Positions 758 to 37,800 of a DNA stretch of 64,000 nucleotides are shown here, in pieces; position 1 is the first letter of the stretch; every line of letters begins with the position of its first letter. The position numbers and the translations under genes were made by a program. This DNA is from Chloranthus sessilifolius. Lineage: Eukaryota > Streptophyta > Magnoliopsida > Chloranthales > Chloranthaceae. The DNA lies in contig CM037590.1 of the NCBI GenBank assembly GCA_021018995.1, forward strand, positions 67,985,597 to 68,049,596, written 5' to 3'. The notes under the pieces were generated by a model. That model saw only the letters and a program-made list of their open reading frames with translations. It was not told the origin of the DNA and searched no databases.

Positions 758-772
758 ACCTGCTCCCGTAGA

Positions 773-12564: not shown

Positions 12565-12729
12565 GGCGCAACTATTAGTTGCGCCTGTGTTCTTCTCCCC
12601 CAGGTTGAGCCGGGTGCAACTAATAGTTGCGCCAACACATTTTGGTCCCCATTTATGCCTAGCGCAACTAATAGTTGCGCCAGTACATATTTCCTAGGAT
12701 TTCAACCTAGCGCAAGTAATAGTTGTGCC
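12565..12729. promoter_or_regulatory. Palindrome cluster upstream of aORF1 (element A)
   Basis: Four palindromes at 12565-12585, 12613-12633, 12661-12681 and 12709-12729, each with arms like GGCGCAACTA and TAGTTGCGCC around one central A or T, spaced 48 bp start to start. The first three have 0-1 mismatch between arms; the last has more. Their place 170-330 bp before the aORF1 ATG suggests a promoter role (inference). Confidence 0.75.
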
Positions 12730-13104
12730 ACACTACAATTCCCCCTCTTCAACCATCCTGGGACCCAGCTATGGGGACTTACACCCCTTTTGTTCTTTTT
12801 TATTTTACGCACCTCCTTTTACTAATAGTTTGGAAATTACTTTGTTTATTCATATGCAGGACTGGTCCTACATCAAAGAATGCGACCCAAAAAGTCGCTT
12901 TCTGAGAGCATTTTGGCCAAACGCATCCTATAGAGAAACAGATCCGATACAAAGAAATCCTGGCATAAAATCAAAACAGAAACACTAAAAATATTTTCTA
13001 AAAAATAATGACCCAAGGTATCACATCAACCATCCTCAAAATGTTTAAACAAATCCAAATCGAATTCCAAAGAGTACTGAGTTTTCAAAACAAAAACTAA
13101 AAGC
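12730..13104. other. Spacer between the two antisense genes (element A)
   Basis: No gene or clear signal seen. It separates the promoter side of aORF1 from the 3' end of aORF2 and has a counterpart in B (30660-31080). Confidence 0.4.
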
Positions 13105-15564
13105 CTATTCCTTGCTCGCGCCCTTTGATATCTTGTGACGGCGAGAGGAGCTGTGGAAGGTCCGAATGTCCCCCACCTTGTACCACGCCTGCGAGATCCT
13201 ACTGAGTAAAGAACGCAACTCCTTAGCACGAGCACGTTGCAAGGTACAGTCAAAGTCAAGAGTCACGATCAGTTAAGGGACAAATGATAATGAAATGAAT
13301 GAGAGGAGTAGGGTAGCAAGGTACTCACCCTCTCCACCTCCCTAAGCTCTGCAAGATGACGATGGTACTCCGCATATTCCATGACCGAGTTGAAATCCTG
13401 CATTCAGAACAATATAACATCAATTGCTAGGGCAATCTTAAAGCATGTACAATAGGAGGCTGAAACGGAAAGAGATTGGGCCGTCAGTAGACTTACCCCT
13501 GAAACCACCTCAAGAGGAGGGACATGGGCCGCCTCAGCAGAAAGTTGCGCTTGTCGATCCACGTCCGCGCAGAGGCCCGAAAGGAAGCTGTCATCCAGGC
13601 GTCGGAAGGTCCCATAGACCACGGGCGGATCGCCACCAGGGATACCAACATGAGAGGTACCTGACGGACCAGCACCCAAGGAGCCCTCCCCCGAGGGACC
13701 CACACCAAAAGGGCCTGCACCAGAGGGATCTTCCCCTGGCATATCAGCTGCACCCGTCCTACCTTCACCATCCGAATCATCCCCTGGAGAAAACTGTGAA
13801 CAAAATAAAGATCCGCTTAGAAGGAATGAAGGATTGAACTAAAGCATAAAGGGAACTAATCCAAGCCAAGAAGAATTACCTGGCCGAGAGGGCCGCCGAA
13901 CACAAGAAAATTGGCGCTAGGTATAAAGCGCCGCAAGATAAACTAGTACGGCAAGCACTCGTACTAAAGATGATAGTCCCCGAGCACATGGAGAGCATGG
14001 ATGGGAATCCCATTGTTGAACAAGGCCGCGATAAGCTCCTCAATACTGCCAACGGGATACCAAACATTCGTCGGAGGGTCCACAGGTATGGCATAATAAC
14101 CCTAGAATTGGTGCACGACTCACTCCCCCAGATAATAGAATTTGGCCCATGCTCCATAGAAGAAAATGATGCGACGATTGTTAAATAGGCGGGAGGCGCC
14201 TACAGTTGCTCGGTCCCAGAAGGGGGATGCAAGGTAAGGGTCAGGGAGGATCTGCCCAAGTCAAAAGAAAAAAAAAAAGAGAGAGAATCCAACCAGTTAG
14301 CACATTAGTAAAGGGAGATTCCCGAGCTAAAAACAAACAAAGTTGAAAGAGAGTTTTACCTAGTGAAGAACCATCAAGTCGAGTTGGGACCTAAGACCCG
14401 TCTCCAAGTGCTTTAAACCTACATCACAGCGTCGGGCCTGATTCCAGTTGCTGAGGAGGGGATAGGTAAGCACCTCCAAGAAAAGAAGCAGGCGACCAAG
14501 GTGAAAGTGATGGTATCCCCATACCTGAAAAAGGGGGGGGGCATTGCACAAGAGCAGGTCATTAGCGTATATGGATCATTCAAAAAAAGTAAAGGAATGA
14601 GGAATTACCTCCAGGGTGGCCCAAAATCTAACAGCAGACTTTGAATCCCTGGTCGTGATCCGAGACAAATTGCACATCAGCCATGCATACCCTGCCCCTC
14701 CCCAGTCATACCTGTGGACGTCACCCCAGTTGTCCATCACACTCAGCAGGGCTAGGTTGACTCAGCCACCGCTCGCATTGGTGAAAAGGGTCTTACCAAG
14801 CAGGACGAAGAGAGTAATGCGGGCTAGGACGATCGCCCGTTCGGGCGTGATGTAGAGCACCCTGTCTGGCTGACCCAGATCCACTAACTCATCAGGTGTA
14901 TAAAGTGAGGTCAGCCAAGACATCTTGACCTCGGAACCATGTGTTTGCCCACGAGGAGGATAGGCCTCAATCAATCGAATAATGTCCTCTCGACTCGGCA
15001 CCGCCAAATCGGATATCGGTATCCCCCTATCCTGATGCCGATAATCATGGCCCAGTCGACGGGTGTCAAAGTCATCTCTGCATACGGAATGTGAAAGGTC
15101 ATCGTCTCGGGGTGAAACCGTTCAATCAGGGCTTCCAGATAGGCAGCGTTGGCCCTCATGGCAGGGCAAGATTGAAATTCTCTGAAGCCCACCTGTGCCA
15201 GAAGGACCTTTACCACGGGAGGGACGTAGAGGTAGAACTCGTGAAAGTCGAGCCACCCCCCGTGGAACACAATGTTGGGCAGGTCCTGCACCCAAGAAAA
15301 TGCGCATCAGACCACAAAGGCAAAGCAAAAACTGCATAATATATATAAATTGAACCTCTCTTTTACCTTGCCCGTTATCCCGAAATTTGAATTGTGGGTA
15401 TACTGTTGGTGAAGGAGGCCGGCCCGGTCGGCCTCGCCCTGCATCTTGAGCCATGGGCCCGCTCTCCAATCTACCCAGATGAACTGCTCCCCCCGCGGGC
15501 CGTACACTATCTCAGGCCTCTCGTCGTGGCCCTCCTCAGGAATATGCTCACCCTCGCCTGACAT
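13105..15564 (-). pseudogene. Element A antisense spliced gene aORF2 (plant mobile domain)
   Basis: Minus-strand gene with seven coding exons inferred from GT/AG borders and protein continuity: 15564-15367, 15285-14609, 14524-14360, 14251-13880, 13793-13497, 13397-13329, 13236-13105. Exon 2 reads HPETMTFHIPYAEMTLTP, the core pattern of the plant mobile domain (PMD), followed by RAIVLARITLFVLLGKTLF. Exon 5 is rich in GPSGxGP repeats, exon 7 is basic. Donors GTAAGT and GTGAGT are visible at exons 5 and 6. Exon 2 has a one-base deletion relative to B, exon 3 ends in a TAG from CAG, and the last acceptor is AA instead of AG. Introns are 81-112 nt. PMD proteins act in transposon-related silencing in plants; the role here is unknown. 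Confidence 0.75.
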
Positions 15565-16144
15565 GCTGGGGCGACAAAAGGCAACCACATTAGAATAGAT
15601 CAGTGGTAAAGGATGGTTTTTGTGCTACATACCAAGGGAAGGTAAGTATGCTCACCCTCTCGATGTTCATGGTCAGGAAGTAAAGACGCACACATACATA
15701 GGCAATAAAAAAAAACAACAAAATCCCTTTTAGGTTGAAAATGCAAAAAAATCCCCTCCTTTCTATCTTAGAATGTAAAGAAAAAATAATAATAAAATAA
15801 ACCCCCCTTTCTTTTATGTTTAAAAATAAAAGCCATTTAAAAAAAAAAAATCGTCATCAAAACCAAAGGGTCCTTCCTTTATGCCAAAAAAGGGGGGGTT
15901 TAGAAAAAAAATAAACCAAAAAATCCTTTTCTTCATGGTCCATAAAATCAAAAACAAAAAACAAACAAAAAAAACCTTCTTTCAAAAAATCACTCCCCTT
16001 ATGTCCATAAAATTGAAAATTCCCTCTTTTACAAAAAAAAAAAAAAAACACTAAAACCAAAAATATATGCCTTAGTTTGCAAACAATAAAAAAAATTTTG
16101 TAGAGGCAAAATCCTTTTCCTTAATTGATGATAAAAAAAAAAAA

Positions 16145-16178
<34 letters not shown>

Positions 16179-16419
16179 TAAAAATAAACACGTTCCCCTT
16201 GATTAGTTTTCAATATATATAGGAACCAAAAATCGTCTTTTTAATTAATTAACCTTTCAAAAAAAAAACAAACAAAAAAAAAAAAAACAACAAAATCTTT
16301 TCTTTTTCCTAACTAGTTTTCAAAATAGTATCTTTGCTTAGTATTCAAGATAAAAACAAAAAATAAAAATAACACCCGTTCTCTAAGCACAAATAAAAAT
16401 AAAAACAAAAATTATTATT

Positions 16420-16500
<81 letters not shown>

Positions 16501-16690
16501 GCATTAATAAAACCCATAAAACCACATAAATAAGGCATTATTCATATATAAAAAAATCCTTCACACATCATCAATCAACATGCTTACAATGGAAATAAAC
16601 TATTTTTCATCTAGGAATGCAAAATCATGATCATATTTGCAAGAAAGAGCAAGAAAAATCAAAGAAAATAGATGTGAAATGATTACCTCT
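15565..16690 (-). other. Inferred 5' UTR intron of aORF2 (element A), T-rich
   Basis: On the minus strand an exon-like segment ends AAG-AG/GTAATC at about 16685, and the sequence before the aORF2 ATG reads TTGTCGCCCCAG just upstream of it, so an intron of ~1.1 kb is likely. The interior is very A-rich on plus (T-rich on minus) with poly-A runs, (AAT)n near 16147-16175 and an (AT)n tract. No other gene seen. B has a similar layout at 33580-34607. Confidence 0.5.
16423..16498. repeat. (AT)n microsatellite
   Basis: About 76 bp of uninterrupted TA dinucleotides inside the A-rich spacer. Confidence 0.95.
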
Positions 16691-16890
16691 TAGAAGAAAG
16701 GGGGTCTTTGATCTAGCGTGAGCCGACGATCGATCCACACAAGCAAAGCAATGGCAATGAGGCACACGTAGAGGTAATGTAAAGGAACCCTAGGAGGGAG
16801 GCGGTTTTCGGTTTCAAAGAGGAAAGAGGGGGAGAAAAAATTCGAAATAAAGCCCCAACCCGAACTCTGGCTGTTTAAATTCCCCCCGGC
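16686..16890 (-). other. Inferred 5' UTR exon of aORF2 (element A)
   Basis: Read on minus: pyrimidine-rich leader (TTTTTTCTCCCCCTCTTTCC), CCTAGGGTTCCTTTACATTACC and a donor GTAATC. The same leader is conserved in B (34608-34800) although neither encodes a conserved protein. Palindromes lie immediately upstream. It is called from conservation and position only. Confidence 0.45.
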
Positions 16891-16897
16891 CAAGCCT

Positions 16898-17014
16898 GGC
16901 GCAACTAATAGTTGCGCCAGGCAAAATGTTTCCCACCTTTTGCTTGGCGCAACTATTAGTTGTGCCAGGCTATTTTGAGGCCCCTAGTGGCCTGGCGTAA
17001 CTAATAGTTGCGCC
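16898..17014. promoter_or_regulatory. Palindrome cluster at the aORF2 promoter (element A)
   Basis: Three palindromes at 16898-16918 (perfect), 16946-16966 and 16994-17014 (one mismatch each), again spaced 48 bp. On the minus strand they sit just before the inferred 5' UTR exon of aORF2. Flanks extend the symmetry with CTG and CAG. Confidence 0.75.
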
Positions 17015-17276
17015 AGGCACTTAGGCCGGGCCTTGGGTCTGGTACGGGCCAGATGGGAAGACCGGTCCTCCCACTCTTTTTGTTTGTTCTGTCACTCCCG
17101 GCAGATGCACGCGCTCCCAAGGCGGCATTTCGATTATCCTTCGACTTGCCAAGAGAGCCGGGATAGAATAAAAGCAGATCGAGATCAATGAGCACCCCAA
17201 TCCTACACAGAAAAATATAAAATAAAAATCCAAAAAAAATCCCCACAGAGAAGCCGGAAGTATTCACAAGAAAAAT

Positions 17277-17432
17277 CCACATAAAATAATAGCTTCAAAA
17301 TTCTAAAAAACCACATAAAATAATAGCTTCAAAATTCCAAAAAATCACATAAAATAATAACTTCCAAACTCCAAAAAAATCACATAAAATAACAGTTGAA
17401 AATTTCAAAAAAATTGCATAAAATGTTAGAAA
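17277..17432. repeat. Tandem ~36-bp A-rich repeat
   Basis: Four to five copies of CACATAAAATAATAGCTTC followed by AAAATTCCAAAAA. Element B has the same family more diverged at 35150-35490. Confidence 0.75.
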
Positions 17433-17439
17433 AATCAAA

Positions 17440-18677
17440 AACAGATTTGTATTCCCCACGGAGACGCACAAGCATAAGGCGGTAAAACGTCAATATTTTA
17501 TCCGTAATGTAGTTGTGCCATACTAAAGTCCTGAGTCGGAGGTTCGCCATGGATTTTTGGATCCTACTTTAAGGAGTAACAGTGTCGGTCCCGGTCACAC
17601 GGTCAATGTTTCGATCGAGTCAACTCCATGGCTAAATCTTTGCGACGAACATTCTGTTTTGAATTCATGAGAACTTAAGTGTCTTAAGCTTCAGATTCTC
17701 TATTGGAAAAGGTCAATCGTTGGTTGAGACCAACCTATTGAGAATGAGATTACGTGTCAATCAAACTATGTGCAACCATGTATTCAAAAGGGTTCATTTC
17801 CCTTTTTATTTTCTGCAGGCTTAAAACTTGTATGGGCAGCGGTATCCCTGTAAAGTGTACGCCATGCATCTGGATATCCGTATAATGGTCGTTTGTCCCC
17901 GTAAATTATACCCGGGCGGGTCCTGGTCGGGGCTTCCATCGCCTTTGTTGTTACTTATTGCCCCTGATGGATGCATGATTATGCATAGTTCATTGATATT
18001 TATGATCATTGTTAGCAGAGACTAAGATTGGATGTCTCTTCATGGATATACCCCAATATTTGGTTGGATCTGTTCAAGATAATCAAAGTTGGAGGCTCTG
18101 GGCCATGCTAATCTAAGGCATGCTTTCAAAAAATGGCATGCACTCCCAAAAAGCATTGTGACATCTATTCACTTCGCTCGGGCAATCATGCTAAATAAAC
18201 TTCAGGGTCGATGGGTTCGCCCCAAAGACCTCAAACCCTGTTTTTCAGCAAGGGAAACTGTGAATAGTCAGATGGGGCCATCAAATGCCTCGTAGGATTG
18301 AACGCAAACTATGGAGCCTTGCGTACACTTACTCCATGCCTGTCTTTGAATGTGAGTCGATTACCCCCCCCCCTTTTACTCACGAAACGGTTGCATTCAA
18401 AATAAATTTTAAACATCAGATACCTTCAAAATCATCCCGAGGAGCGAATATCTTTCCCGGCTATAGGGAGTTCACAACTCATTCCACCTCGGTTATACCT
18501 AGTAATATCGCTAAGCGCTTGAGAACCATTACCTCGAGAAACGAATGTTTAGCCCGACATCCAAGGCTTTCGTTTCCTCGTCGTGTTACTCATCTGATGT
18601 TTAAAGTTTGTTTTGAATACAGCGGACCCGTCAGTAATACCTTGGGCCTCTTCAGATGTCTCTTTTCTTTAACATTC
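17440..18677. other. Element A untranslated region before the 3' LTR
   Basis: No convincing ORF. It contains a ~170-bp block (about 18130-18300: GCATTGTGACATCTATTCAC onward) that is present once here and twice in B. Similar order to B 35500-36940. Confidence 0.5.
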
Positions 18678-18690
18678 GATCAGGGGCATC
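18678..18690 (+). promoter_or_regulatory. Polypurine tract of element A (degenerate)
   Basis: The sequence ATCAGGGGCATC directly precedes the LTR start TGTAGACAC. In B the same position reads GCAAAGAGGGGCATC, a clearer plus-strand primer. Confidence 0.55.
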
Positions 18691-19116
18691 TGTAGACACT
18701 CAAATTTGGCCTAAGGCCCGATCGAAAGACCTTTCGAGAGAGGTATAATTTTGAGCTTTTGATGACATGTATGGAACCTTTAGGAACCCCCCTAGAATCC
18801 TTAGGAACCTTTCCAAACCCTTAGGAATCACCCTAGATCCCTTAGGAACTTGACCCGAACCTTTTAAAATCAATCCCAACCCTTAGAATCCGTTCTGAAC
18901 CTAAACCTAACCTTATTAAGCAAATGGTTGAGGAGGGGTGCACCGAAACTATCTAGGGACCTCTACTATGATCAAATCTTATACCGTTGAAAAGTAGAGG
19001 TCGTCAGCTTTCCAACGGTCTAAGAATTGCCCCAATCAGAGGAATATATCAAAAGATACAATAAACTGAGCTTGGAGGGCATAAGAGTAAAATCAAGTGG
19101 GTCCCCCTAGGGATTT

Positions 19117-19366
19117 GGCGCAACTAATAGTTGCGCCAGGCTATTTCTCCCTAAAAATGGCCTGGCACAACTAATAGTTGTGCCAGTGATAATTTTACTT
19201 GGTGCAACTATTAGTTGCGCCAGGCCACTTCTCCCAGGATTTAAGTCTGGCGCAACTAATAGTTGCGCCAGTATTAATTGTGGACTCCACCCTCACGAGC
19301 TAACTTTCAGGCACTGTTTAAAACTGCTTTACTATACATTTGCTTGGCATAATTATTAGTTGCGCC
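19117..19366. promoter_or_regulatory. Palindrome cluster in LTR U3 (shared LTR)
   Basis: Five palindromes at 19117-19137, 19164-19184, 19201-19221, 19249-19269 and 19346-19366. The first and fourth are perfect, the second is perfect with a compensating change in both arms (GGCACAACTA and TAGTTGTGCC). They lie 285-535 bp upstream of the LTR TATA box. The 3' LTR of B has only two at the equivalent places. Confidence 0.8.
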
Positions 19367-19650
19367 AGGCATATGAACAGTAACCTCTAGATTTTACCCC
19401 AAATATCGTGATTGGGATTTGACTTGTTGACCACCTTGATCTTTGGGGTGTGTTTTGCTAGTTTTGTTGCACCCATTCCCTACCTATTTGCATCCCTTCA
19501 AGTGGCTTAAGGCCTCATCCCATCATCCACCATTGGAGGACCTTCTCACATATCTCAAGGCTCCAAAAACCCTAGGAATCCTTAGATATGAGATTACCTA
19601 ATTGCTAAACCCATTTAGCTCTTAAGTGGTCTCCTAATCCACCCATTTCT

Positions 19651-19658
19651 TATAAATA
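19651..19658 (+). promoter_or_regulatory. TATA box of the shared LTR
   Basis: TATAAATA preceded by a C/T-rich stretch and followed by GAGCCCCC; the equivalent TATAAATA is at 37793 in the other LTR. It should set the sense transcript start about 30 bp downstream. Confidence 0.7.
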
Positions 19659-20439
19659 GAGCCCCCACCCCTTGGTTTAAGGGTTGAGAAATTTGCTTAA
19701 GGGAGAAAGAGCTCAAAGTGAGAAGTTCTTTCTCCCTTTTGTGCACCATTTTCACTCAAATTCCAGAATCTCCCAACCTCATTTCAAGCTTATTCTTGCA
19801 TCCAAAACCCTTAGTCTAGGTGTGTGTGATCCCCTAGCCTCCCTTCCCTGCCTCTTAGCTTCAAGCCTTAGGAGTTAGAACCCCATTTTCTATCATACAA
19901 GGCCTTCAAAATCTCATCAAAGCAAGCCACGCAAGGCTCTCCTACGATGCTATAAGGGCCCGAGGGCTCCGGCTCTCCCCTTTCTTCTCCTATCTCTTTC
20001 TAGCTCCCTCCATCCTCCCATTTGTGTCGTTACGCTGCCGAATTTTCAGTAGGAACCGAGAGGCACAAATAGAATTCTAACCCCTTTTGGGCAAGAGGAA
20101 ACTATTTTCCTTTCTTTTACTTCATTTTATTTTTGGCCATAAGTAGAGACCGTCTTAAGCAGGTTGATCGGGTGCCTAACACCTTTCCAATCGATAATCG
20201 AAGCCCCTACCCAAGAGCCTTTGGTGTAGATCGGATTTAGAGTCATATTTTTAGCACTTCGGTGCTCATAAAAATGAACTAGGTTTCTCGGGGCATCGAA
20301 AGCTCCGGGTGGTGACTTTATATTTTTTGCTAGCAAGCACATCGCCATGACGAGATCATCACAAATCCCATGGCTGGAGACAAGGGTCCACCAAAGGTCA
20401 AGTTAGGAGGTGAAAAATGGTATTTTTCACTGCTTAATA

Positions 20440-23118: not shown

Positions 23119-23544
23119 GTGGCCATGCTCCAAAAGTGGGGCTATCAAAAAAGAAGAGGACTCGGGCTGAGACTCCAAGGTAGGAAGGAACCCGTCACAG
23201 TTAAGGGAGGCCAAAAAGTCATATTCGGGCTAGGTTACAAGCCCACGGAGGACGAAGTGCGAGAGGCTAAAGAAAAGGTCTGTGCTACAACAGCTACAAA
23301 AGCTAGGGGGATCTACATAGAGAAGAAACCCCGTCCCATGCCTCATTTCAAAAATTCATTTGTGAGCATCGGGGTTGTGAAGATTGATCGAAATGGGATA
23401 AATCCATTAACCCCACATAAGCCCACAACACCGGTTCACCCCACCAATCCTCACATCACCCTTCCCAACCTGGAGATAGACTTGGCTGCGTTATCCCTCT
23501 TTGAGGAGCAACGGCCCGTACCTGAACAAACTCCCCTGTGGTGA
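23119..23544 (+). pseudogene. Element B G-patch-like segment
   Basis: Reads MLQKWGYQKRRGLGLRLQGR and FGLGYKPTEDE. Two glycines of the A version are changed (to Arg and Leu). A duplication of AACAGTGGCCA just upstream shifts the frame from the protease. Confidence 0.7.
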
Positions 23545-25499
23545 ACCACCATAAAATTGTTTTAACGTCTGAGGATATCATCTTAGACAAAATGGGGATC
23601 AACATGATGGAGGCTGACTCCGAAGAGCCATATCAGTCAGCACCCTCCATCCAAATAGGTAAAGGAGCGACCTCTCAGGTACGGAACTGGGCATCTTTAT
23701 CCCAAACCCTAGAAGCGAGGAGTGGTCTAATATTTGGTACTCGTTTCCCAAAAAAAATAACCTATAAAAAGTGAGATAAGCCCTTGGCAGGTAATACCTT
23801 ATATATACACAAACTCATGCTGCCAAGGGTCTGTCTCCGAAGAAGATAAAAATTTCAAAACTATTAAAAAAATACAAAGTCCAAAAATATTGTCATTTAA
23901 AATTCTAAATAAAATCCCACAAAAAGATGACTTAATTGAAATACCCATCCCACATAAAATTGGCCTCTTTCCTGTAGAAATACAAGAAGAGGTAGGTGTT
24001 ACGAGTCTCGACGAGGATATCCCTTTGGACGAGCTCCCCAATGACCTCCTTGACCAGTTTGCCAAATTTGATAATGGCCCTACCCCCATTATCGAGGAAA
24101 CCAAGTACGTTAATCTAGGGATTGAGGAAATTCCCTGAATTACCAAAATTGGAATGCAGCTATCTCTCGAAGAGAGAAAAAGCATGATCGACTTTCTTCG
24201 GTCATACCAAGACATTTTTTCCTGGTCGTACGAGGACATGCCTGGCCTGGACACTGATTTGGTCGAGCATGAGTTGCCCTCTACCCTGATATGAAGCCGA
24301 TTAAGCAGAAGCTGAGACGTCTCCGACCCAAGTGGATGTTGAAAGTCAAAGACGAGGTCATCAAGCAATATGGCGCAGGGTTTTCATGATATCTAAGTAC
24401 CCGCAGTGGCTAGCCAAGATTGTACCTGTACCAAAGAAGGATGGAAAAGTAAGCATGTGCATTGATTTTAGAAACTTGAATAAGGCAAGCCCGAAAGATG
24501 ATTTCCCATTGTCGCACATCGACATCCTGGTCGATAACACTGCTAAGCATGGGATGCTTTCTTTCATGAATAAATTCTCATAATACAATCAGATTAAGAT
24601 GGAAGAGGCAGATCGAGAAAAAATTGCGGTCATCACTCCTTGGGGAACCTTTTGCTATAGAGTCATGTCGTTTGGGCTGAAGAATGGCGATGTAATGTAC
24701 CAGAGAGCTATGACTGTGTTATTTCATGACATGATGCAACGAGATATTGAAGTGTACGTTGATGATATGATAGCCAAGTCATCAGAGTGAAGCGATCACT
24801 TAATGAACCTCTAGAAGCTATTCGAAAGGTTGAGAAAGTACAGATTATGTTTGAATCCACAGAAGTGCACATTTAGTGCCATGTCAGGAAAACTATTAGA
24901 ATTCATCATCAGCAAGAGAGGGATCGAGGTCGACCCAGTCAAAGTCAAAGCTATTACAGAAATGCCGCCACCATCTATCGAGAAAGAAGTTAGAGAGTTC
25001 TTGGGCATAATATAATATATCAGTCAGTTCATTATACAACTAACTCCAATCTGCACACCGATCTTCAAGCTACTAAGGAAAAAATAACCCGTTGAATGGA
25101 ACAATGATTGTCAGGAAGCGTTCGATAAAATCAAAAGCTACCTCCTTCACCCCACCTATGTTGGTTCCACCCGAGCTAGGGAGACCACTCTTGATGTATC
25201 TCTTCACAACGAAAGTCTCGATGGGATGTGTCATAGGGCAGCATGATGAGACGGGAAGAAGAGAGCAGACCATTTACTATTTGAGCAAGAAGTTTACTGA
25301 TTATGAGACATGCTATTCTCATCTGGAAAAAGCATGACTGGCTCTTGTATGGGCGACTCAGAGGCTCCGCCATTACTTGCTATCTCAAGCCGTTCTACTT
25401 TTGGCTCGAATGGACCCATTGAAATACCTGTTCAAGAAGCCGGCTCTTATTGGACGAATCACACGATTTCAGCTTTTATTGTCTGAGTTTGACATCACG
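23545..25499 (+). pseudogene. Element B reverse transcriptase and RNase H
   Basis: Linker then RT: YPQWLAKIVPVPKKDGKVSM, CIDFRNLNKASPKDDFPLSH (the block damaged in A is kept here), ITPWGTFCYRVMSFGLKN and active site YVDDM near 24755-24772. Stops include TAA at 24582, TGA at 24788 (Arg in A), TAG in the LQKL block near 24812 and TGA at 25336. RNase H block YYLSKKFTDYETCYSHLEKA is present. Confidence 0.85.
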
Positions 25500-26220
25500 T
25501 ACGTCACTCAAAAGTCGATTAAGGGGCAGGCACTCGCCTATCATCTTGCCGACAATCCTTTTCCAAATTATGAGCCTTTGAGAACTGAGTTCCCCGATGA
25601 GGATATTATGTTCATGACGAAAGATGATACTGAGGAAGTAGAAGAATCATGGGTAATGCACTTTGACGAGACAGCCAATGCCGTGGGTCAAGGAGTTTGC
25701 GCCATTCTGATTTTGTCGAGAGGATCCCACGTACCTGTCTTGATTAAGCTCAACTTCCCTTGCACTAACAACATGGCCGAGTATGAAGCTTGTGCCGTTG
25801 GTTTGCAGGCGGCTCTCAATCTGAACATAACCCACCTTCGAGTGTTTAGCAATTCGCAATTGATCATATGTCAGACGAATGGTGACTGGAAGACAAAGGA
25901 CCAAAAACTAATCCCTTACCATGAGCACCTTGAGGATCTGATAGTTTATTTCGAAGACGTGATATTCTCATATGTCTCCCGAATAAGGAATCGCTTTGTC
26001 GACGCACTAGCCACTTTGGCATCAATGATAGAAATCTCGTATGATGCGGAGATGAAGCCGATCATGATCAAGCAAAGGAATGAGTCAACCTTCTGCCTCC
26101 AGATTGAGGAATCTACAAAGCCTGATGATGAGCCACCTTGGTTCTTAGACATCAAGAATTTTCTCGAGACACTAACTTTTCCTGAGGGCACGTCTAAGAC
26201 GGACCGACGAACCATTCAAC
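25500..26220 (+). pseudogene. Element B second (archaeal-type) RNase H
   Basis: The frame is unbroken within a 338-codon ORF (25377-26393). Blocks WVMHFDETANAVGQGVCAIL, CTNNMAEYEACAVGLQAALN and FVDALATLAS are kept, but the third catalytic position reads FSNSQ instead of FGDSQ, a GAT to AAT change that removes the catalytic Asp. Confidence 0.85.
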
Positions 26221-27387
26221 GTTTAGCAGCGGGTTACATCATTTGTGGGAAATGCCTTTACAAACGATCCTACAATAACATTTTGCTCAGGTGCCTTACT
26301 AAGAGTGAAGCGATCAGCATCATGAAGGAGATCCATGAGGGAGTATGCAGTGCCCATGTCCGCGGTCACATACTCGCCAAGAAAATTCTATGACAGGGAT
26401 ACTTTTGGACCACTATGGAATCAGATTACTGCAAATATATTCAGAAATGCTACAAGTGTCAGAAACACTCCAGTCTGATACACGCTCCTGTCATCGATCT
26501 TCACTACATAACCACTCCTTGGCCATTTGCTACCTGAGGCCTTGAGGTCGTCAGAATAAATAATCCGAAAGCATCGAATGGACATCGATTCATCCTCGTC
26601 GCCATTGAATACTTCACCAAGTGGGTAGAAGTAGTATCATATGCCAAAATCATAGCCAGTCATGTTGAGAAGTTTCTCAAGAGTAATATTGTGTGCCTAT
26701 TTGGAGTACCCAAGGATATCATCACGGACAATGGCCCAAACTTTACGAATAAGTGCATCTGAACCTTCTGTGAACAATACCAGATCAAGCACCATCGTTC
26801 GTCACCTTATCAGTCTCAAACTAATGGAGCCGTGGAAGCTGTGAATAAGACAGTCGTCCGCATCCTCGAAAAAATAGTCGTCACTTACCGAGATTGGAGC
26901 GAGATGCTGCCATTTGCTTTGTGGGCCTATAGAACATCAATCAATACCGCTACAGGGGCAACACTATTCTCCCTTGTGTATGGAACCGAGGCCATCCTAC
27001 TGGTAGAGGTTGAAGTACCCTCACTCCAAATCTTCATGGAATTAGGCTTACCCGAGGCAGAGAGAGAGGTCCCACTTTGAACAATTGAACTTATTAGACA
27101 AAAAGAGAATCCTAGCCTTGTGTCATACTCAAGTTTACCAAGGGCGAATCGCACGCGCTTACAATAAACATGTCCGCAGTCGAGATCTAAAGATAGGAGA
27201 CACTGTGTTGAAGAATATCTTCCTATCCCTCCACGCTGATCCAAGAGGGAAGTTCAAGCCGAACTGGGAAGGACCTTACGTCATCCAAGAAGTGTTATCG
27301 GGTTACGCCATCCGCCTCACCGCCATGAACGAAAATCATCTTTTTGAGCCCATCAATACTAGATACGTCTGACGGTTCTACTCTTAG
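26221..27387 (+). pseudogene. Element B integrase
   Basis: Zinc-binding region HEGVCSAHVRGHILAKKIL then a TGA at 26391 (Trp expected). The core has IITDNGPNFTNKC and QTNGAVEAVNK. The first triad position reads GLEVV, Glu in place of Asp as in A. A TGA in the FCEQYQ block (26759) and a TGA near the end (27370) are CGA to TGA type. C-terminus ends RFYS at 27387. Confidence 0.85.
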
Positions 27388-28895: not shown

Positions 28896-30455
28896 TCAAC
28901 GGCCTAGCTCGTGCTTCAAGGCACTAATCTCAGTGAGAAAACCATCCTCCTAGACATTTCGCTCAATCAACCAACGACCATGCAAGCTCTTGTACCTCTT
29001 CCGAGAAGCATCAAAAGCCCCATGAGCAACATTCAAGGATCCTTCCAGACGAAGGACCTCGCTCTCAGCCACGCCAGCTCTGGTCTCTGCTATCTCTGCT
29101 CTAACTTTTTCTTGTGCTAAAGGCTCTTGCAAGACCCTCTTCATGTCAACCAACAGCTTAATGCAAGCTCGAAGTGTTTTCTCCTTCTTCGGCCAAGGGC
29201 CTCCCATGTCAACACTCTCTGTCTGATTCAGATGATCAGTAGCAGGCTGCTCAGCCAATAGCCAAACCTCGTACTCAAGGGAAGACTGAACTGAATCTCC
29301 CTGCTCCATATCACACATCAGCATCGAGTGACACATCTCCCAAAGAGCAGCAATCCGATCCACATCCCCAAAGGGCCCCCTAGAAAAGATCAAGTCACAT
29401 AGAGGGGGTTTTGCCTCGCAAGGCACCTGCTGAGAGCAGCCAAACTGACACAACACTCAAAATGGGAAATAGAAGGTGCTACCAGTCAATCCTAGGAGGG
29501 TGATGCCCGCATGGTCTCTGGAACGAACTACTGGGAAGGTCCGATCCAACCAAGGAAGTCTCCATATCAGCTCTGTATTGGTCAACCAAAGCTTCAAAGC
29601 TGACAAATCACCCTATGGAAGCAAGTGACACCTACCCAAAAAGCATCGAGCCGCCTTACCTCGAGCGATATAAAAGCGTGGCACAAGTCCCAAGATAGTG
29701 AGATGCTCACCTAACCAGACCTGAAGTAGCAAAGGATATCCCCTGAGGCTCTCCACCTTGCCCAGAGCAAATGCATCAACGTATTGGTATAATTCAACAA
29801 GGACTAGGTGCATCACCGATCGGCCCTCTAACAACTCGGTCAAAACTTCCCAGAGAGCCAAATAGAAGCTCTCTCCCCCGATAAAGAAAAGGACTTTCGA
29901 AATGAGACTAAGAGCAAAGGCTTTCACATTGAAGATGTTCCTAACTGACAATTTTTGAAGACTTTCGTCACCGAAAAGTTCTTTGAGGAATTTGATCGAA
30001 CACCTTGTGGGCCCCCCAATGAGACTTTTCTCATAGTTAAATTTCTTCAAACCAAGAGGAAGGTGAACAGATTTTGAGTAGCTCGACTTCGACGTGACTC
30101 TTACGAGGCCTCTGTAGAGCTTCAAGCTAGACAAAATGGATAATTCCTCAAAAGTGGGAGTTAGCTCCCGCTTCTCGAAACATAACACATGGGCGTTTGC
30201 ATCCCAAAACGAAGAGGTCGCATGAAGTAGGTCATCCCACCGTGGAGGAACCTCGAGAAAGAAGGGAAGGCATGATAATCCAAGCCGCTCCAGTTTAATG
30301 AGCTTGCTCTCATTCAAGCTTCCAAGCCAACTTTTTAGAAAATTGGGCCCCAAGCCTAAAGAAATGAGTAAATTTGTTCTAAGCCCTCCATGTAAGGGAG
30401 GATTGGACAGCGGGTCCATAGACATACAAAGATCTTTCAAAGATATAAAATTCAA
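28896..30455 (-). pseudogene. Element B antisense accessory gene aORF1 (DUF7745-like)
   Basis: A nearly intact intronless minus-strand ORF of about 520 codons from the ATG at 30455 to a TGA at 28896. N-terminal half: FLKSWLGSLNESKLIKLE, FFLEVPPRWDDLLHATSSFW, HVLCFEKRELTPTFEEL (DUF7745-like pattern). Middle: VWLGEHLTILGLVPRFYIAR. C-terminal 130 residues are charged and Ala/Glu-rich (EKVRAEIAETRAGVAESEVL), likely coiled coil. It is interrupted only by TAG at 29613 (Gln in A), TGA near 29457 (Arg in A) and TAG near 28949 (Trp in A). The intact remainder suggests selection before decay. Palindromes lie 135 bp upstream. Function unknown. Confidence 0.7.
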
Positions 30456-30589
30456 TGTATGTCAATGAACCCACCCTTAGGGAAGCAAAAGAAAAAAAAT
30501 TAGCTGAAAAGGCCAAGTCAAAAAGAAAAGAAGGAGAACTTAGACTGACCCGGGCATATAAAGGCCCCACAACACCCCAGGCTAAAACT

Positions 30590-30657
30590 GGAGCAACTAT
30601 TAGTTGCGCCAGTGCAAGTTTCCCCAGAACAAGCCTAGCGCAACTAATAGTTGCGCC
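30590..30657. promoter_or_regulatory. Palindrome pair upstream of aORF1 (element B)
   Basis: Palindromes at 30590-30610 and 30637-30657 with arms GGAGCAACTA/TAGTTGCGCC and AGCGCAACTA/TAGTTGCGCC, one mismatch each, spaced 47 bp. A has four at this place. Confidence 0.75.
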
Positions 30658-31082
30658 AGTACAGATCCCCCCTTCCATGCCATTTTTAGGGGCTGTTTTG
30701 GGGATTTTTTGTGGGCCTTTACTGGCCCCCTTAGCCAGTTAACCTATTCACCTATTTTATGCCTTAAAAATGTTCACAAATGCATAAATCAAAGGGCACC
30801 TAACATTGAAATCATTTGACTTTTTGTGCAGGAGAAACCCGCAACAAGGCATGCGACCTTGAGGGCCGCTTTCATAGGCAATCGTCAAAACCATCCTGCA
30901 AGCAGTTGGATATATGCAAGGAAGAGATAACATGCAATCAAAGGAATAGCACTAAATATTTCCAAGCAGTAGAAATTATCCAAAAAAATGCCACAATCAT
31001 CCATCACAAACTGTTTAAACATCCCAAAAACATCATCCCCAATGTGCTAAATGTCTGGAAAAAAAAAAGAAACTAAGGCCTA

Positions 31083-33573
31083 ATCCTTGTTAGCGCCTTT
31101 CGACTTCTATCGCCGACACGAGGAGCTCTAGAAGGTCCGAATGTCTCCTACCCACGACCACGCCTGCGAAAGTCGGCTGAGCAAAGAGTGCGACTCCTTG
31201 GCGCATGCACGCTGCAAGTCATAATCAAAATCAGAAATCAGGGTCAATTGAGGAACAAGAGAGAGTAAACCAATGAGAAAAGCAGGTCGGAAGATACCCA
31301 CCGCCTCCACATCCTGGAGCTCTGCGAGGTTACGGTAATACGCCACATGCTCCATAGCTGAGTCAAAGTTCTACATTTAGAGGGAAAGGGTGCCAGTTGC
31401 AGGGACTAGTAACAAACACATGCATTTATCAAAGGAGCCAAGACAACGGAAGAATGAGCGTGAGAAGGCTTACCCCCTGAGCCACCTCAGGAGGAGGGAC
31501 CCGAGCCACTTCAGCTGAAATGCGAGCCTGCCTATCGACGTCTGCACATAAACTTGAGAGGAAGCTATCGTCGAGGCATCAGAAGGTCCCATAGACTATG
31601 GGCGGAGCACCACCAAGGGCACTCACCTGAGAAGTACCCGACGGGCCAGTACCTAAAGCACCCTCACCTGAGGGACCCGAACCTGAAGAATCCTCACCCG
31701 AGGGACCTGCACCAGAAGGGCCAGCACCAGAGGGACCCGCCTCTGAAGCACCCACGGTACCCATCGCCGCCCCGCCTTCATCATCTGAGCCATCTCCCTG
31801 CATAAACTATGAACAAAAAAGAGATTCGCTCAGTAAGAACCAAAGCTAAATTGAAACCAAAATGGGACTAAACTGAAAGAAAAGGGAGAATTACCTGGGA
31901 GCGCAGGCCACCAAAAGCAAGAAAGTTGGCGCTAGGGACAAAGTGCGGCAAGATGAACCGATACGGCGGGGACTCGTACCATAGCTGATAGTCCCCAGGC
32001 ATGAGAAGGGCATTAATGGGAATCCCATTGCGGAGGAAGGCCGCAGTGAGCTCCTCAATGCTACCAACAGGATCCAAAACATCTGTAGGAGGGTCTATGG
32101 GTATGGTGTGATAACCCTAATACTTGTGAACCACCCACTCTCCCAGACAGTAGGCCCTGGCCCATGCCCCATAGAAGAAGACAACGCAGCGGTTGTTGAA
32201 TAGGCATGATAGACCTACGGCTGCCCGGTCCCAGAAAATGGAGGTGAGGTACGGGTCGTAAAGGATATGTCCAAGTCAAGAGGTGGTCAATCAGTCAAAA
32301 CATGCAGCATAATAACAATGAAGAATTTCTGAACTGAAATAAACAGAGTTGAAAAGGCCTTACCTGCTCGGGGACCATCAGATCGAGCTGGGATCTTAGA
32401 CCCATCTCTAGGTGCTTCATGCCCACATCGCAACGTCGAGATTGGTTCCAATTGCTAAGGAGAGGGTAGGTATATGCCTCTGAGTGGAGAAGCGGGCGTC
32501 CAGGCTGAAAGTGATGGTACCCCCATTCCTTATAGGAGCAGTGCACAAAGAACAAGTGAGTAGCATACAAAGATCATCCAAGTAAAACTGATGAAAGCAA
32601 AAGAGTTAGGGAGTACCTCCAATGCCGCCCAAAAACCAACAACGGACTTGGCCTCCCTGATAGATACTCGGGCTACGCCATACATCAACCACGTATATCT
32701 AGGCCTGCCCCAGTCATACCTATGGACATCGAGCCAGTTATCCATAATGCTTAGCAATGCCAAGCTGACTCGACCGCCACTAGCATTCGTAAAGAGGGTC
32801 TTACCCAGCAAGAGCAAGAGAGTGATGCGGGCCAGGACGATCGCCCGTGCGGGCTTAATGTAAAGCTCCCTATTTAGCTGGCCCAGATCTACCAGCTCAC
32901 CAGCCCCAAAGAGCCTAGATAACCAGGTCATTTTGACCTCGGTACCGTGCATCTGCCCATGAGGGGCATAGTCCCCTATCAATCTCACAATGTCCTCTCT
33001 GCTCTGCACCGTAAGAGTGGCTATCGGTATGCCCCCTACCCTAACGCCAGTAATCATCGCCCAATCCATGGGCGTCAGTGTCATCTCGACATAGGGCATA
33101 TGGAAAGACATGGTCTCAGGAAGGAACCGCTCTATCAGGGCCTTCAGGTACGCAATATCGGGCCTCATGGGGGGGCAAGACAGGAACTCTCCAAAGCCCA
33201 CCTGCCCCAGTAAAAACTTTACCACAGGGGGAACGTAGCGGTCGAAATCGTGAAAGTCTAACCAGCCCCTGCAGAACATGATAAGGGGCAGGTCCTGCGT
33301 CAAGAGAGAGAAATGCATCAAATCATGGAAATAAAGCAAAGTTGCACAAAAAAAAGAACTGAACCTATCTTTTACCTTGCCCGCTATGCCGAAATTAGAG
33401 ATATGAACGTATTGTTGATGAAGAAGGCCAGCATGGGCGGCCTCGCCCTGCATCTACAGCTAGGGGCCCACCTTGCGCTCTATCACAAAAAATTGCTCCT
33501 CGCAGGGACCATAGACTACCTCAAGCCCCTCCTCATGGCCCTCCTCGGGTACGTACTCTTCGTCGCTGGACAT
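31083..33573 (-). pseudogene. Element B antisense spliced gene aORF2 (plant mobile domain)
   Basis: Seven exons collinear with A: 33573-33376, 33294-32617, 32528-32364, 32266-31895, 31806-31474, 31370-31302, 31211-31083. Exons 1, 3, 4 and 6 have the same length as in A (198, 165, 372, 69) and exon 2 differs by one base (678 and 677). Exon 2 reads LPETMSFHMPYVEMTLTP (PMD pattern), GRVSLALLSIMDNWLDVHRY and is fully open. Exon 5 is GPSG-repeat rich. The acceptor of exon 4 reads AT rather than AG, exon 1 has two TAGs, and exon 7 has an early TAG. Same likely role as the A copy. Confidence 0.75.
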
Positions 33574-33579
33574 TTTAGG

Positions 33580-34607
33580 GCAAAAGCAAACAATTACATC
33601 AAAGCAGATCAGTGATAAAGAATTATTTTTTGCAACAGGCCAAGGGAAGGTAAGTATGCACATCCTTTTTCTATTATTTTCATAAACAAAGGTACACACA
33701 TACAAACAAACAAAAAGAAAATCCCTTTTAATAGAATGAAAATGCAAAAATTCCCTCCCCTTTTTATCTTCAAAAGTAAATAAAAATAAAACAAGTTTCC
33801 CTTTTCTGTGTTTAAAAATAAAGCAAGTTAAAAATAAAAAACAAAATCCTTTTATGCTCCTAAAATCAAAAACCAAAAAAAAAAAAAAAAAAGTCCTTTT
33901 ATGTTAAGAAAAATTAAAAACAAAATCTTTTTATGCTCCTAAAATCAAAAAATCAAAAAAAAGAAGTTTTTTTTATTAAAATCAAAAAAGGGAAATCTTT
34001 AAAATAAAAAAAAAACAAACAAAAAAAAGAGAAGTCTTTTTATTTAAAATCCAAAACTCAAAAAAGAGAGTCTTTTTCTTTATGCCCATAAAATCAAAAA
34101 AACCAATGCAAAAATAAAAAAAATCGAGTCCTTAGAACAAAAAAACCAAAAAAAAATAAACCCCTTTTCCTTAGTTTGTTTTCAAAAAATATACAAAGAC
34201 CAAAAATCATTTTCCTTAATTAACTTTCAAAAGAAATAGAAATCAAAAATCTTTTTTTCTTAATTAAAATTTTTGAAAAAGAAAACAAAAATCCCTTTTT
34301 CCCTAAATTAGTGTTCAAAAAATAAAAAACCAAAAATCCATTGCTCTATATGCAAAATAAAAACAAAAAAAACAAACAAAAAAAAAATCCCTTCTATATA
34401 CACAAATAAGAATAACAAAAAAAATACATATATTAGGCACCAATAAATCCATAAAATAATAAAAATAGGGCATTATTCATAAGAAATCATCCACACATCA
34501 TTAATAAACATACATACAATAAAAATAAACCATTATTCATCAAAGAATGCAAGATCATGATCATATTTGCAAGAAAAATCAAGAAAAATGGGTTTTTAAT
34601 GATTACC
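33580..34607 (-). other. Inferred 5' UTR intron of aORF2 (element B), T-rich on minus
   Basis: A-rich on the plus strand with many AAAAATC repeats. On minus a donor GTAATCATT follows CTCCAAAAG at about 34607. No other content seen. The acceptor before the ATG is not clear in this copy. Confidence 0.45.
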
Positions 34608-34813
34608 TTTTGGAGAAAATAGGGTCTTTAGCGCAAGGCGGCAACCAATCATCGCAAGCGAATGCCGACAATAAGGCACGTGTAGAGGCGATGTAAAGGA
34701 ACCCTAGAGGAGGCCGGTTTTCGATTTGAAGAGAGGGGGAGAAAAAAAAAATTCAAAAATTTGCCCTTGCTGCCCGAACTCGGGCTGTTTAAATTCGAAA
34801 CCCAGCCAGGCTT

Positions 34814-34882
34814 GGCGCAACTATTAGTTGCACCAGGCTATTTTGAGCCTTCTTTTGGCTTGGCGCAACTAATAGTTGCGCC
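34814..34882. promoter_or_regulatory. Palindrome pair at the aORF2 promoter (element B)
   Basis: Palindromes at 34814-34834 (one mismatch) and 34862-34882 (perfect), 48 bp apart, just upstream on minus of the conserved leader (34608-34800). Element A has three. Confidence 0.75.
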
Positions 34883-35099
34883 AGTCACTCGCGGGTCGGG
34901 TTTTGGGCCTGGTACGGGTCAGATGCATAAACCGGTACCCCCCTCTCTTCATTTTGTATACTCCCGGTAGATGCACGCGCTCCCAAATGATATGTCGATC
35001 CTCATTCGACTTGCTCGGGAAGCCGTGCTAGAATAAAATGGACCGAGATCAATGGGCATCCCGATCCTATACAGAAAAGCGTGAAAAAGTTTAAAAATA

Positions 35100-35500
35100 A
35101 TGAAAAAAAAACTCTCGCATAAAAAGCCAAAAATAATTTACATAAAATGATAGAATAATTCACATAAAATAATAGTTCTGAAAAACCAAAAAAAAATCTC
35201 ATAAAATGATAGCTTTAAAAAACTAAAAAATCGCATAAAATGATAACTTAAGAATCTAAAAATCTCCAAAAAAGATAAAGAAAATCTCAAAAATAATTCA
35301 CATAAAATAATAGAAGTAATAAAGTGATAAAGTCACATAAAATAATAACTTAAAATCTAAAAAAAATCACATGAAATAATAACTTAAAATCCAAAAAAAT
35401 CACATGAAATGATAAAACCCAAAAAATCACATAACATGATAATCACATAAAATGATAAACATAAAATGTCAAAAATTCTCATATAAAATAATTAAAAAAA
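35100..35500. repeat. A-rich tandem repeats (CACATAAAATGATA type)
   Basis: Irregular copies of a 25-40-bp phrase, CACATAAAATRATARCTTAA plus AAATCCAAAAA. Same family as 17277-17432. Confidence 0.65.
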
Positions 35501-35519
35501 TGTGTGTTTTATAAAAACA

Positions 35520-36560
35520 GAATGTACTCCCAAAAAGCGTTGTGACATCTATTCGCTCCGCTCGGGTAGTCGTGCTAAATAAACTTCAGGATCAATGGGT
35601 TCTCCCAAAGACCTCGAACCACGTTTCAAGTAGGGACCCGCGACCGGTCAAATGAGGCAGTCTATGCCTCATATGATTGGACGCACAGCGACGCACATGC
35701 GTGCTCCTAAGTCTAAGGTTCGCCTTAAATTTTTGGATCCTACTTTAAAGTAGGAGCAATGGTGTCAATCTTGATCAAACAATCAATGTTTCAATCAAGT
35801 CGACTCCACTGCTAAATCGGTGCAATGAGCACTCTGTTGGCGGATTCATAAGAGAGTGAGTGTCAAACTTGAGATTTATCACGAGCTATTTCAGAGGTAT
35901 GGACTCTTGGTCTGCGCTACCCGGGCGCGTGCCCTACGGGGTTTGAGGTCCGGATAACTCCGTTATGCAAAAGGTCAATCATTGGTGGAAACCAATCTAT
36001 TGAAAATAAAACTACATGTCAATCAAACTATGTGCATACATGCATCCAGAAAGGTTCATTTCCCTTAACTTCGCAGGCTTAAAACCTGTATTGGCACGGT
36101 ATCCATGTAAAGTGTATGTCATGCGTCTAGGTATCCGTAGGATGATCGTTTATTCTCGTAAATTGTATCCGAACGGGATCTGGGTCGAGACTTCCATCAC
36201 CTTTATTGCTCATCGCCCCTAATGGGTGTATATTTATGCATAGTAAAATGATTTGTAAGATCATTGTCGGTAAAGGCCAGGATTAGATGTCCCCTTCGAT
36301 GGGCACCTGATTTTGGTCAAATCTATTTTGTGTCATTTGAGGTTGGATATTCTGGGTCTCAAGGATCCGGGGTACGTTAGAAAAGCAACACGTACTCTCA
36401 AAAAGCATTGCGATATCTATTCACTCCGCTCAGGTAGTCGTGCTAAACAAATTTCAAGATCAATGGGTTCGCCCCAAAGACCTCGAGCTCTGCTCTAAGC
36501 AGGGGCATCTGTGACCAGTCAGATGAGGCGATCAATACCTCATATGATTGGACACAAACT
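35520..36560. repeat. Direct duplication of ~170 bp within element B
   Basis: The block 35520-35690 (CTCCCAAAAAGCGTTGTGAC, then ATTCGCTCCGCTCGGGTAGT, CTTCAGGATCAATGGGTTC) recurs at about 36390-36560 with ~85% similarity by eye. A has one copy (18130-18300). The sequence between the copies has no clear gene. Confidence 0.7.
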
Positions 36561-36939
36561 GTGGAGCCATGCGTACTTGCATTGCGCCTTCTTAGAATGT
36601 GGGTCGGTCAACCTCCTTACTTACGAAGTTGTTGTATTCAGAATAAACCTTGAACATCAAACTCCTTTAAAACATCTCGAGAAGTATCTATTTTTCCTAG
36701 CTATTGAGCTTTCACAACTTATTTTCCACCTCGATTATACCCAGTAATGTCGCTAAGCGCTTGGGGACCGATTACATTGAGAAATAAACATTTTTTCTAA
36801 CATACAGGGCTTTCATTTTCTCACCATATTACTCATTTGATGTTTGAAGTTCGTTTCGAATGCAGTGGACCCGTCAGTAATGCCTTGGGCCTCTTTAGAT
36901 GTCCCTTTTCTTTGGCATTCGATCATTAGTGATCGGATA

Positions 36940-36954
36940 GCAAAGAGGGGCATC
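36940..36954 (+). promoter_or_regulatory. Polypurine tract of element B
   Basis: GCAAAGAGGGGCATC directly before the LTR start TGTAGACACC, the plus-strand primer site for reverse transcription. Confidence 0.75.
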
Positions 36955-37379
36955 TGTAGACACCCAAATTTGGCCCAAGGCCCGATCGAGACACATTTCG
37001 AGAGAGACGCATCTTTGAGCTTTTGATGGCATGTATGGAACTCTTATGAACCTCTTTGAAACCTTGAGAGTCATTTCAAACCCTTAGAATTCATCCTAGA
37101 TCCCTTAGGAACCTTCTCGAACCCTTAGAAACCCCCATCCTGACCCTTAGAACCCATTCCAGACCTAAACCTGGCTTTCCCGAGCAATGAATGAAGAGTG
37201 GTGCACCGATACTAGCTATGACCTTCTATTGTGATCGATTCTCATTCCATTAAAAAGTAGAAGTCCTCAGCTTTCTAACGAGCCAAGAATCACCCATATC
37301 GAAGTTGTACATAAGAAGATATCGCGTTCTGAAGAGCAGGGGCAAAATGGTAAATAGTGTGGAGCCCCCCTAGGGATTT

Positions 37380-37498
37380 TGCGCAACTAATAGTTACGCC
37401 AGCATTAAGGTGGGTACCCCACAGGCAGTCAACTTCTCAAAGCCACTATGCACTATTATTTTACTGTACATATGCTTGGCGCAACTAATAGTTGCACT
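37380..37498. promoter_or_regulatory. Palindromes in LTR U3 (element B 3' LTR)
   Basis: 37380-37400 (two mismatches) and 37478-37498 (arms GGCGCAACTA and TAGTTGCACT). They match the first/fourth and fifth sites of the shared LTR, so the intervening copies in that LTR were gained or these lost. Confidence 0.7.
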
Positions 37499-37792: not shown

Positions 37793-37800
37793 GAGGCACC
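37793..37800 (+). promoter_or_regulatory. TATA box of the 3' LTR
   Basis: TATAAATA followed by GAGAGGC, aligned with 19651. Confidence 0.7.

Follow-up and report, generated by a model that had tools for sequence, protein, structure and literature searches.

The window analysed here is a stretch of 64,000 nucleotides of Chloranthus sessilifolius DNA (contig CM037590.1 of assembly GCA_021018995.1). It holds two decayed long terminal repeat (LTR) retrotransposons, both oriented alike, which we call element 1 (E1) and element 2 (E2). Each carries two antisense open reading frames (aORF1 and aORF2), both plant mobile domain (PMD) genes, located between pol and the 3' LTR. A palindrome, GGCGCAACTA-N-TAGTTGCGCC (whole motif GGCGCAACTANTAGTTGCGCC), was found in the window in 18 copies with 0-3 mismatches, five of them perfect. 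The copies form six clusters, as had been described in an earlier note on this DNA, and these arrays are as follows (no strand assigned):

12565..12729: array a1-E1, four palindromes at intervals of 48 bp, upstream of E1 aORF1 (antisense)
16898..17014: array a2-E1, three palindromes in 48-bp steps, at the putative aORF2 promoter of E1
19117..19366: U3 array in the 3' LTR of E1, five palindromes, with its end 285 bp ahead of TATAAATA
30590..30657: array a1-E2, a pair of palindromes upstream of E2 aORF1
34814..34882: array a2-E2, a pair of palindromes at the putative aORF2 promoter of E2
37380..37498: U3 array in the 3' LTR of E2, a pair of palindromes, with its end 285 bp ahead of TATAAATA

The arrays for aORF1, aORF2 and U3 thus hold 4, 3 and 5 copies in E1 and 2, 2 and 2 in E2. 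At up to 3 mismatches, 100 dinucleotide shuffles gave a mean of 0.00 matches; the window itself had no match at 4-6 mismatches and only isolated ones at 7. When the window was divided into compartments that we defined, the promoter-like ones (about 8.8 kb) held 18/18 copies and the other 55 kb none. Palindromes were absent from the antisense coding parts, from about 28 kb of remaining window and, as previously observed, from gag-pol. Half-sites outside the palindromes were not enriched in the window (2 vs about 1.5 expected).

The spacing of close to 48 bp that had been reported was seen in 9 of the 12 intervals between neighbours (47-48 bp), the remaining ones being 37, 97 and 98 bp. The idea that a palindrome was lost from the middle of the 97/98-bp LTR intervals was rejected, the best match there having 11 mismatches. 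In the a2 array, E1 holds one extra 48-bp unit compared with E2, which is visible as a clean gap of 48 bp. Spacers inside different arrays were alike at p<0.05 in 10/26 pairs in the forward direction and 3/26 reversed; in one alignment, 16894-17015 paired with the LTR array in reverse. The units likely share a common + orientation, which is not certain because the pair 16946/19117 scores higher when reversed. A proposed CTG...CAG extension of the motif held in part: T at -1 (16 of 18 copies), A at +1 (17) and G at +2 (16) were frequent, but C at -2 occurred in only 9. The majority motif is CTGGCGCAACTANTAGTTGCGCCAG, without CGG/CCG. The arrays do not lie in a CpG island, as the observed/expected CpG ratio was 0.58, 0.60 and 0.50 at three arrays and 0.66 in the whole window.

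A genome-wide count of the motif, which the earlier note had proposed, gave 9405 exact copies in 2.17 Gb of the species' own genome (32 contigs) and none of a reversed control pattern. Among the matches listed, 50 exact copies were placed, all on one contig. We analyzed 23 loci, consisting of 20 stretches of 10 kb (holding 39 of the 50 placed copies) and three further stretches; the results on these loci therefore refer to one genome and to motif-selected loci from one contig, except L025, which adjoins the window. At up to 5 mismatches, 117 copies were detected in these loci, and 117/117 were in arrays of such elements: 69 in LTR U3, 25 in the 5' leader, 12 at aORF2, 11 at aORF1 and none elsewhere, gag-pol included. 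The arrays align to one another, and leader copies were assigned by their distance from the LTR end. An equal motif density outside the promoter positions, which had been named as grounds for refutation, was not observed. All three positions suggested previously recur in other copies; a fourth array had been missed.

The fourth array lies in the 5' leader, 810-842 bp past the LTR end, in seven loci (L005, L009, L010, L017, L019, L021 and L025, e.g. L025:2501-2663). No long frame precedes it; in four of the seven, a sense frame (254-381 aa) follows within 1.5 kb. In several of these loci, the region after the array is homologous to window 757-2440, the sense ORF region, and the leader array might likewise belong to a promoter. 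An element of about 25 kb (L020/L026/L021, LTRs 94% identical) had arrays in all four places, and the 10 kb of L026, extending from aORF1 into gag-pol, had no palindromes.

We also used a sample that was independent of the motif. When the aORF2 protein was used as query, 130 matches were obtained from 15626 first-look candidates; 20 of these PMD relatives (64-84% identical) were picked spread down the match list, and 1.2 kb upstream of each was examined. Sixteen had an upstream array, with 36 copies in total, mostly in pairs or triples about 48 bp apart; one of them (L041) had a single variant copy only. Among the other four, two had no promoter-region homology, in one the homology ended before the array, and one stretch started inside the place of the array. 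The array was therefore found in every stretch covering its place, since in the four exceptions this place was replaced or uncovered. A second array was not detected in the 1.2 kb upstream of the 20 PMD relatives, only scattered single palindromes. As expected for a plant element, the exact motif was absent from viral contigs and from bacterial/archaeal contigs.

When the 16 loci with an array were compared with E2, the palindromes differed in 65/647 columns (10%), the spacers in 66/404 (16%) and the flanks in 1302/5169 (25%). Palindromes differed less than flank in 15 of the 16 loci; the Fisher p value of 3e-20 (palindrome vs flank) is overstated, the loci being related. In the window, the six palindromes that could be paired between E1 and E2 differed at 14/126 positions and the flanks at 404/1410. 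Within the window arrays, seven palindromes averaged 91% identity and their spacers 48%. Copies found by similarity are biased toward conserved ones, but after correction for this the 20 deviations in the 18 window copies were still low (p 7e-5 to 9e-4). As a control, we compared the two LTRs of E1, in which the palindromes differed at 11/84 positions and the entire LTR at 174/1631. Palindromes thus decay at the LTR-wide rate between these two LTRs, and their conservation therefore dates from the active lineage, so that selection on the palindromes acted in active copies. CpG transitions accounted for 9 of the 20 deviations in the window, where 10/72 CpG cells and 10/288 other cells were changed; among 171 copies the corresponding counts were 95/684 and 127/2736. 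This CpG excess among changes would fit methylated copies.

The earlier note had suggested that some copies keep their symmetry through paired changes. Just one of the 18 window copies did so (19164), and both of its changes are CpG transitions. Arm covariation, put forward as a sign of an RNA hairpin, was not found in the window (118/500 shuffles reached the score) and was weak genome-wide. Over 84 distinct sequences, both-changed cells numbered 12 vs 13.5 in shuffles, and paired transversions occurred in 4 cells vs 0.99 in shuffles (34/2000 reached this number). Paired-transversion variants GGCGTATATAATATATGCGCC and AGCGCATGTAATACATGCGCC (two loci) change both arms alike. The paired transversions weakly support kept symmetry, and would do so equally for a DNA site bound by a dimer and for a hairpin. 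Both arms were changed alike (AC/GT to TG/CA or TA/TA) at L041:930, L046:1057 and L027:9764, and these variants are possibly a second site type.

The surroundings of the arrays in the window resemble promoters. The final LTR palindrome is 285 bp from TATAAATA in both elements (19651 and 37783), and the ATG of aORF1 is 170 bp (E1) or 171 bp (E2) from the nearest palindrome. The array that had been placed at the start of aORF2 is indeed upstream of this gene and beside a conserved TTTAAA box, but it is 1.2-1.3 kb from the ATG (E1, 16898 vs 15564; E2, 34814 vs 33573). In both elements, the proximal palindrome of this array stands 18-20 bp above the box, which might serve as a TATA box. The box is followed by a pyrimidine-rich stretch and then by a conserved AGGTAATCAT that resembles a splice donor. 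It is possible that aORF2 has a non-coding first exon and an intron. The two boxes are:

16874..16879, minus strand: TTTAAA box of a2-E1, 18 bp below the proximal palindrome, kept in E2 at 34788-34793
30555..30562, minus strand: TTTATATG box of a1-E2, 27 bp below the proximal palindrome, with a putative promoter role

The antisense genes were assigned to PMD by matches to PF10536:

11242..12395, minus strand: aORF1 of E1, PMD, in shifted frames (E 3.1e-9 on 11242-11874, above cut-off)
29613..30419, minus strand: aORF1 of E2, PMD (E 8e-6, below the curated cut-off)
14762..15564, minus strand: aORF2 of E1, PMD, spread over more than one frame (E 6.6e-7 on 14971-15306, below cut-off)
32530..33573, minus strand: aORF2 of E2, PMD (E 3.8e-15 on 32530-33453, above cut-off)

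Differences between E1 and E2 at the first, second and third codon positions were 63, 41 and 90 for aORF1 (third-position excess, p 1.7e-4) and 73, 55 and 122 for aORF2 (p 5.4e-7). Pol showed a like excess (43, 28, 100), which was missing in the non-coding (68, 79, 73) and LTR (65, 57, 76; p 0.13) controls. By this sequence measure, both PMD genes show coding constraint. At E<=0.001, no protein relatives were detected for aORF2 among 3422 candidates or for aORF1 among 1635 candidates, and no solved structure matched aORF2. DUF287 had no match in the antisense pieces scanned.

E1 is about 24 kb long and extends from position 42 of L025, the locus before the window, to window position 20370. Its 5' LTR (L025:42 to about 1680) is outside the window on its 5' side. 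The middle LTR was assigned to E1 as its 3' LTR because it is 89% identical to the E1 5' LTR (1631 aligned bases) vs about 75% to the last LTR. E2 directly follows E1 and lacks a 5' LTR, leader and 5' ORF; at 20371-20439, its gag begins straight after the E1 3' LTR, which may reflect a nested insertion or a recombination event. Identity between E1 and E2 is about 78-79% from gag to aORF1 and 74-75% in LTR alignments. The remaining features of the elements are:

18691..20370, plus strand: 3' LTR of E1, starting with TGTAGACAC, with TATAAATA at 19651
36955..38483, plus strand: 3' LTR of E2, with TATAAATA at 37783
1187..1990, plus strand: sense open frame of 267 aa in E1, located after the 5' LTR and before gag, without a Pfam match
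25338..26393, plus strand: pol fragment of E2, RT_RNaseH then RVT_3 (second RNase H-like), upstream of integrase

E1 has the Ogre-type layout, in which the element is long and a sense ORF separates the 5' LTR from gag; in Ogre elements, an ORF in this place is known as ORF1. The PMD extra ORF, a feature of the Ogre lineage, is also present (PF10536 above cut-off in two of the four antisense pieces and weaker in two). The integrase of E2 begins at 26763, after RNase H and the second RNase H-like domain (RVT_3). Since both RNase H domains precede integrase, the elements are not Ty1/copia, and an additional RNase H (aRH) between RNase H and integrase is a feature of the Tat clade (PMC6317226). 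TRP28 (PF04195), the marker of the Retand antisense ORF, had no match in 12 distinct antisense pieces scanned, a subset of the antisense frames. From their domains and layout, both elements appear to be Tat/Ogre-like Ty3/gypsy elements.

Several known systems resemble these arrays. Sireviruses contain palindromic repeated motifs (RM), many copies of which lie in the upper LTR half upstream of the TATA box, and in 9/13 elements copies are also found upstream of the ENV-like gene (PMC2829016). As here, these are element-specific palindromes clustered in U3 before the TATA box and near an extra gene. However, Sireviruses are Ty1/copia elements with the extra gene in sense, whereas the elements analyzed here are Ty3/gypsy, have a leader array and carry their two PMD genes in antisense. 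In addition, the Sirevirus motif has a CGG-CCG core in 12/13 and a CpG island; neither is present here, where a 21-bp site is repeated in 48-bp units. To judge from sequence, this is the same architecture in another superfamily.

VANDAL transposons encode a protein that binds their own motif arrays, and VANC21 has an anti-silencing role; DUF1985 and DUF287 are VANC protein domains (PMC5735166, PMC10398659 for the former points; PMC5735166 for the domains). VANDAL21 shares with our elements tandem motif repeats in non-coding transposon DNA, with gain and loss of units, and each encodes a protein binder, which here is only a candidate. VANDAL21 is, however, a DNA transposon with a 9-base asymmetric motif and demonstrated binding; here, an LTR retrotransposon has a 21-bp palindrome and putative PMD binders. 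In VANC anti-silencing, motif binding by the element's own protein goes along with loss of DNA methylation.

In Ogre and Retand of the Tat clade, a second RNase H follows the first and precedes integrase, and PMD was found in 57% of Ogre elements (PMC6317226). The PMD-A1 and A2 clades are exclusive to Gypsy elements, and PMD genes are related to host silencing genes (PMC5418596). Our elements share the aRH order and PMD extra ORFs with this group, and no palindrome arrays are mentioned in the accessible parts of these two texts. In maize, Grande gene23 has its own promoter, and TRP28 proteins were proposed to have a regulatory role through DNA binding (PMC11963269, PMC7264820). Grande gene23 and Retand have TRP28, whereas our elements have PMD, and the available portions of these texts describe no motif common to the extra gene and the LTR promoter. 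In Arabidopsis, the PMD proteins MAIN and MAIL1 were tied to transcription and to the DOWN promoter motif, with direct recognition of this motif left open by the authors (PMC7156037); these are host proteins, whereas the PMD proteins described here are element-encoded. Such arrays are also missing from the accessible parts of PMC12844716 and PMC6419827, which deal with VANC or PMD. Among the matches listed, with subscription literature outside, we found no gypsy, Tat or PMD counterpart of the palindrome arrays, and the motif letters (19-base form) did not occur in the published texts among the matches listed. The function of the PMD domain was called unknown (PMC9289625), and the accessible texts among the matches listed report none for Gypsy PMD proteins.

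Position, conservation and recurrence in other copies lend good support to the earlier note's suggestion of a cis-element shared by the sense LTR promoter and the promoters of both antisense genes. Our preferred reading, which we put forward tentatively and at a little under an even chance, is that a dimeric regulator binds the palindrome as a symmetric DNA site, with such sites arrayed ahead of each transcription unit and the PMD protein or proteins as the likeliest binder. Promoter function, protein binding, the identity of the binder and the sign of its effect are what we infer here. A two-fold symmetric regulator would bind the palindromes in tandem units of about 48 bp, and the arrays would stand ahead of four units: the LTR U3, the leader before the sense ORF and each of the two PMD genes on the antisense strand. 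A single factor could then control sense and antisense genes jointly, as a symmetric site would serve promoters of either direction. Since both antisense genes belong to the PMD family and VANDAL encodes a binder of its own motif arrays, a product of the element could plausibly bind the palindrome; the element's own PMD proteins, one or both, are ranked first because of the VANC21 analogy and the ties of MAIN/MAIL1 to transcription and the DOWN motif. The system might even be a self-contained circuit of autoregulation or anti-silencing, as VANC is for VANDAL transposons. By this analogy, the antisense PMD proteins would bind the palindromes at the LTR, the leader and their own two promoters, and the element would be switched on or shielded from silencing sequence-specifically, which we regard as possible but doubtful.

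A number of observations weigh against this reading. One of the six orthologue pairs in the window was no better conserved than flank (6/21), and the same was true of the L041 palindrome (6/21). Beside the leader array, we found neither a clear conserved TATA box nor a known promoter, and the TATA-like TTTATATG box at aORF1 is not kept in E1. The PMD matches of aORF1 of E2 and aORF2 of E1 are under the Pfam cut-off, and aORF1 and aORF2 have no significant BLASTP similarity to each other. A DUF1985 match of aORF2 is non-significant (E 0.21) and overlaps the PMD match; it is only a hint of a link to VANC. The AlphaFold model of aORF2 (six aligned pieces, mean pLDDT 41.6) is too poor to assess DNA binding. 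Finally, the same palindrome accompanies PMD proteins only 64-84% identical, with no co-change of motif and protein observed, and to our knowledge, Sireviruses, which have similar palindromes, lack a PMD gene.

There is a serious rival, which we consider doubtful but quite conceivable: the array might be an enhancer bound by a plant regulator that is recruited to all element promoters. We take a MYB-type dimer on CAACTA/TAGTTG as an example of such a host binder. The evidence of place, recurrence and conservation fits a host factor equally, and the constancy of the motif while PMD proteins diverge to 64% identity gives it some weight. In the Sirevirus study, the matches reported for the palindromes were mainly host sites related to stress (PMC2829016). 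A near-invariant 21-bp palindrome is, however, long for the usual site of a plant factor. The palindromes could instead act as RNA hairpins in transcripts (dimer linkage, export or small RNAs), which we consider improbable. Each copy is predicted to fold (-18.1 kcal/mol for 25 nt), with neighbours forming long duplexes, and the leader array would fall within sense RNA. However, any palindrome folds in this way, and the U3 of the 5' LTR precedes the TATA box. Symmetry is kept through paired transversions in a few of the 171 copies, but such changes suit a dimer DNA site equally, and neither covariation in the window nor an excess of both-changed cells over the 84 sequences was seen. The varying number of units and the resemblance of inner spacers between arrays could also point to a 48-bp palindrome unit that was spread by slippage and gene conversion and has no function. 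This neutral origin is very improbable and appears largely refuted by the data on loci, PMD relatives and conservation: across elements the palindromes have changed less than flanks and spacers, a difference that is missing when the two LTRs of a single element are compared, and the arrays remain at the same four places.

Palindromic arrays that connect the LTR with extra genes are not confined to copia elements but occur in gypsy elements too, and a conserved palindrome with thousands of copies offers a defined DNA target for a PMD binding test. If the PMD circuit were true, it would be a retrotransposon counterpart of VANC and the first function for Gypsy PMD proteins.

Other repeats were also detected in the window. 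A different 21-bp palindrome with one broken pair, ATGAGTCATTTACTGACTCAT, occurs four times (centres at 43409, 43842, 44130 and 44414) within a 144-bp satellite-like array. Two tandem arrays of units of about 128-134 bp (38494-39457 and 49833-50790) are mutually inverted, 70-79% identical and about 10 kb apart. An inverted repeat of about 800 bp (59390-60204 and 61300-62107, 88% identity) possibly represents the ends of another mobile element.

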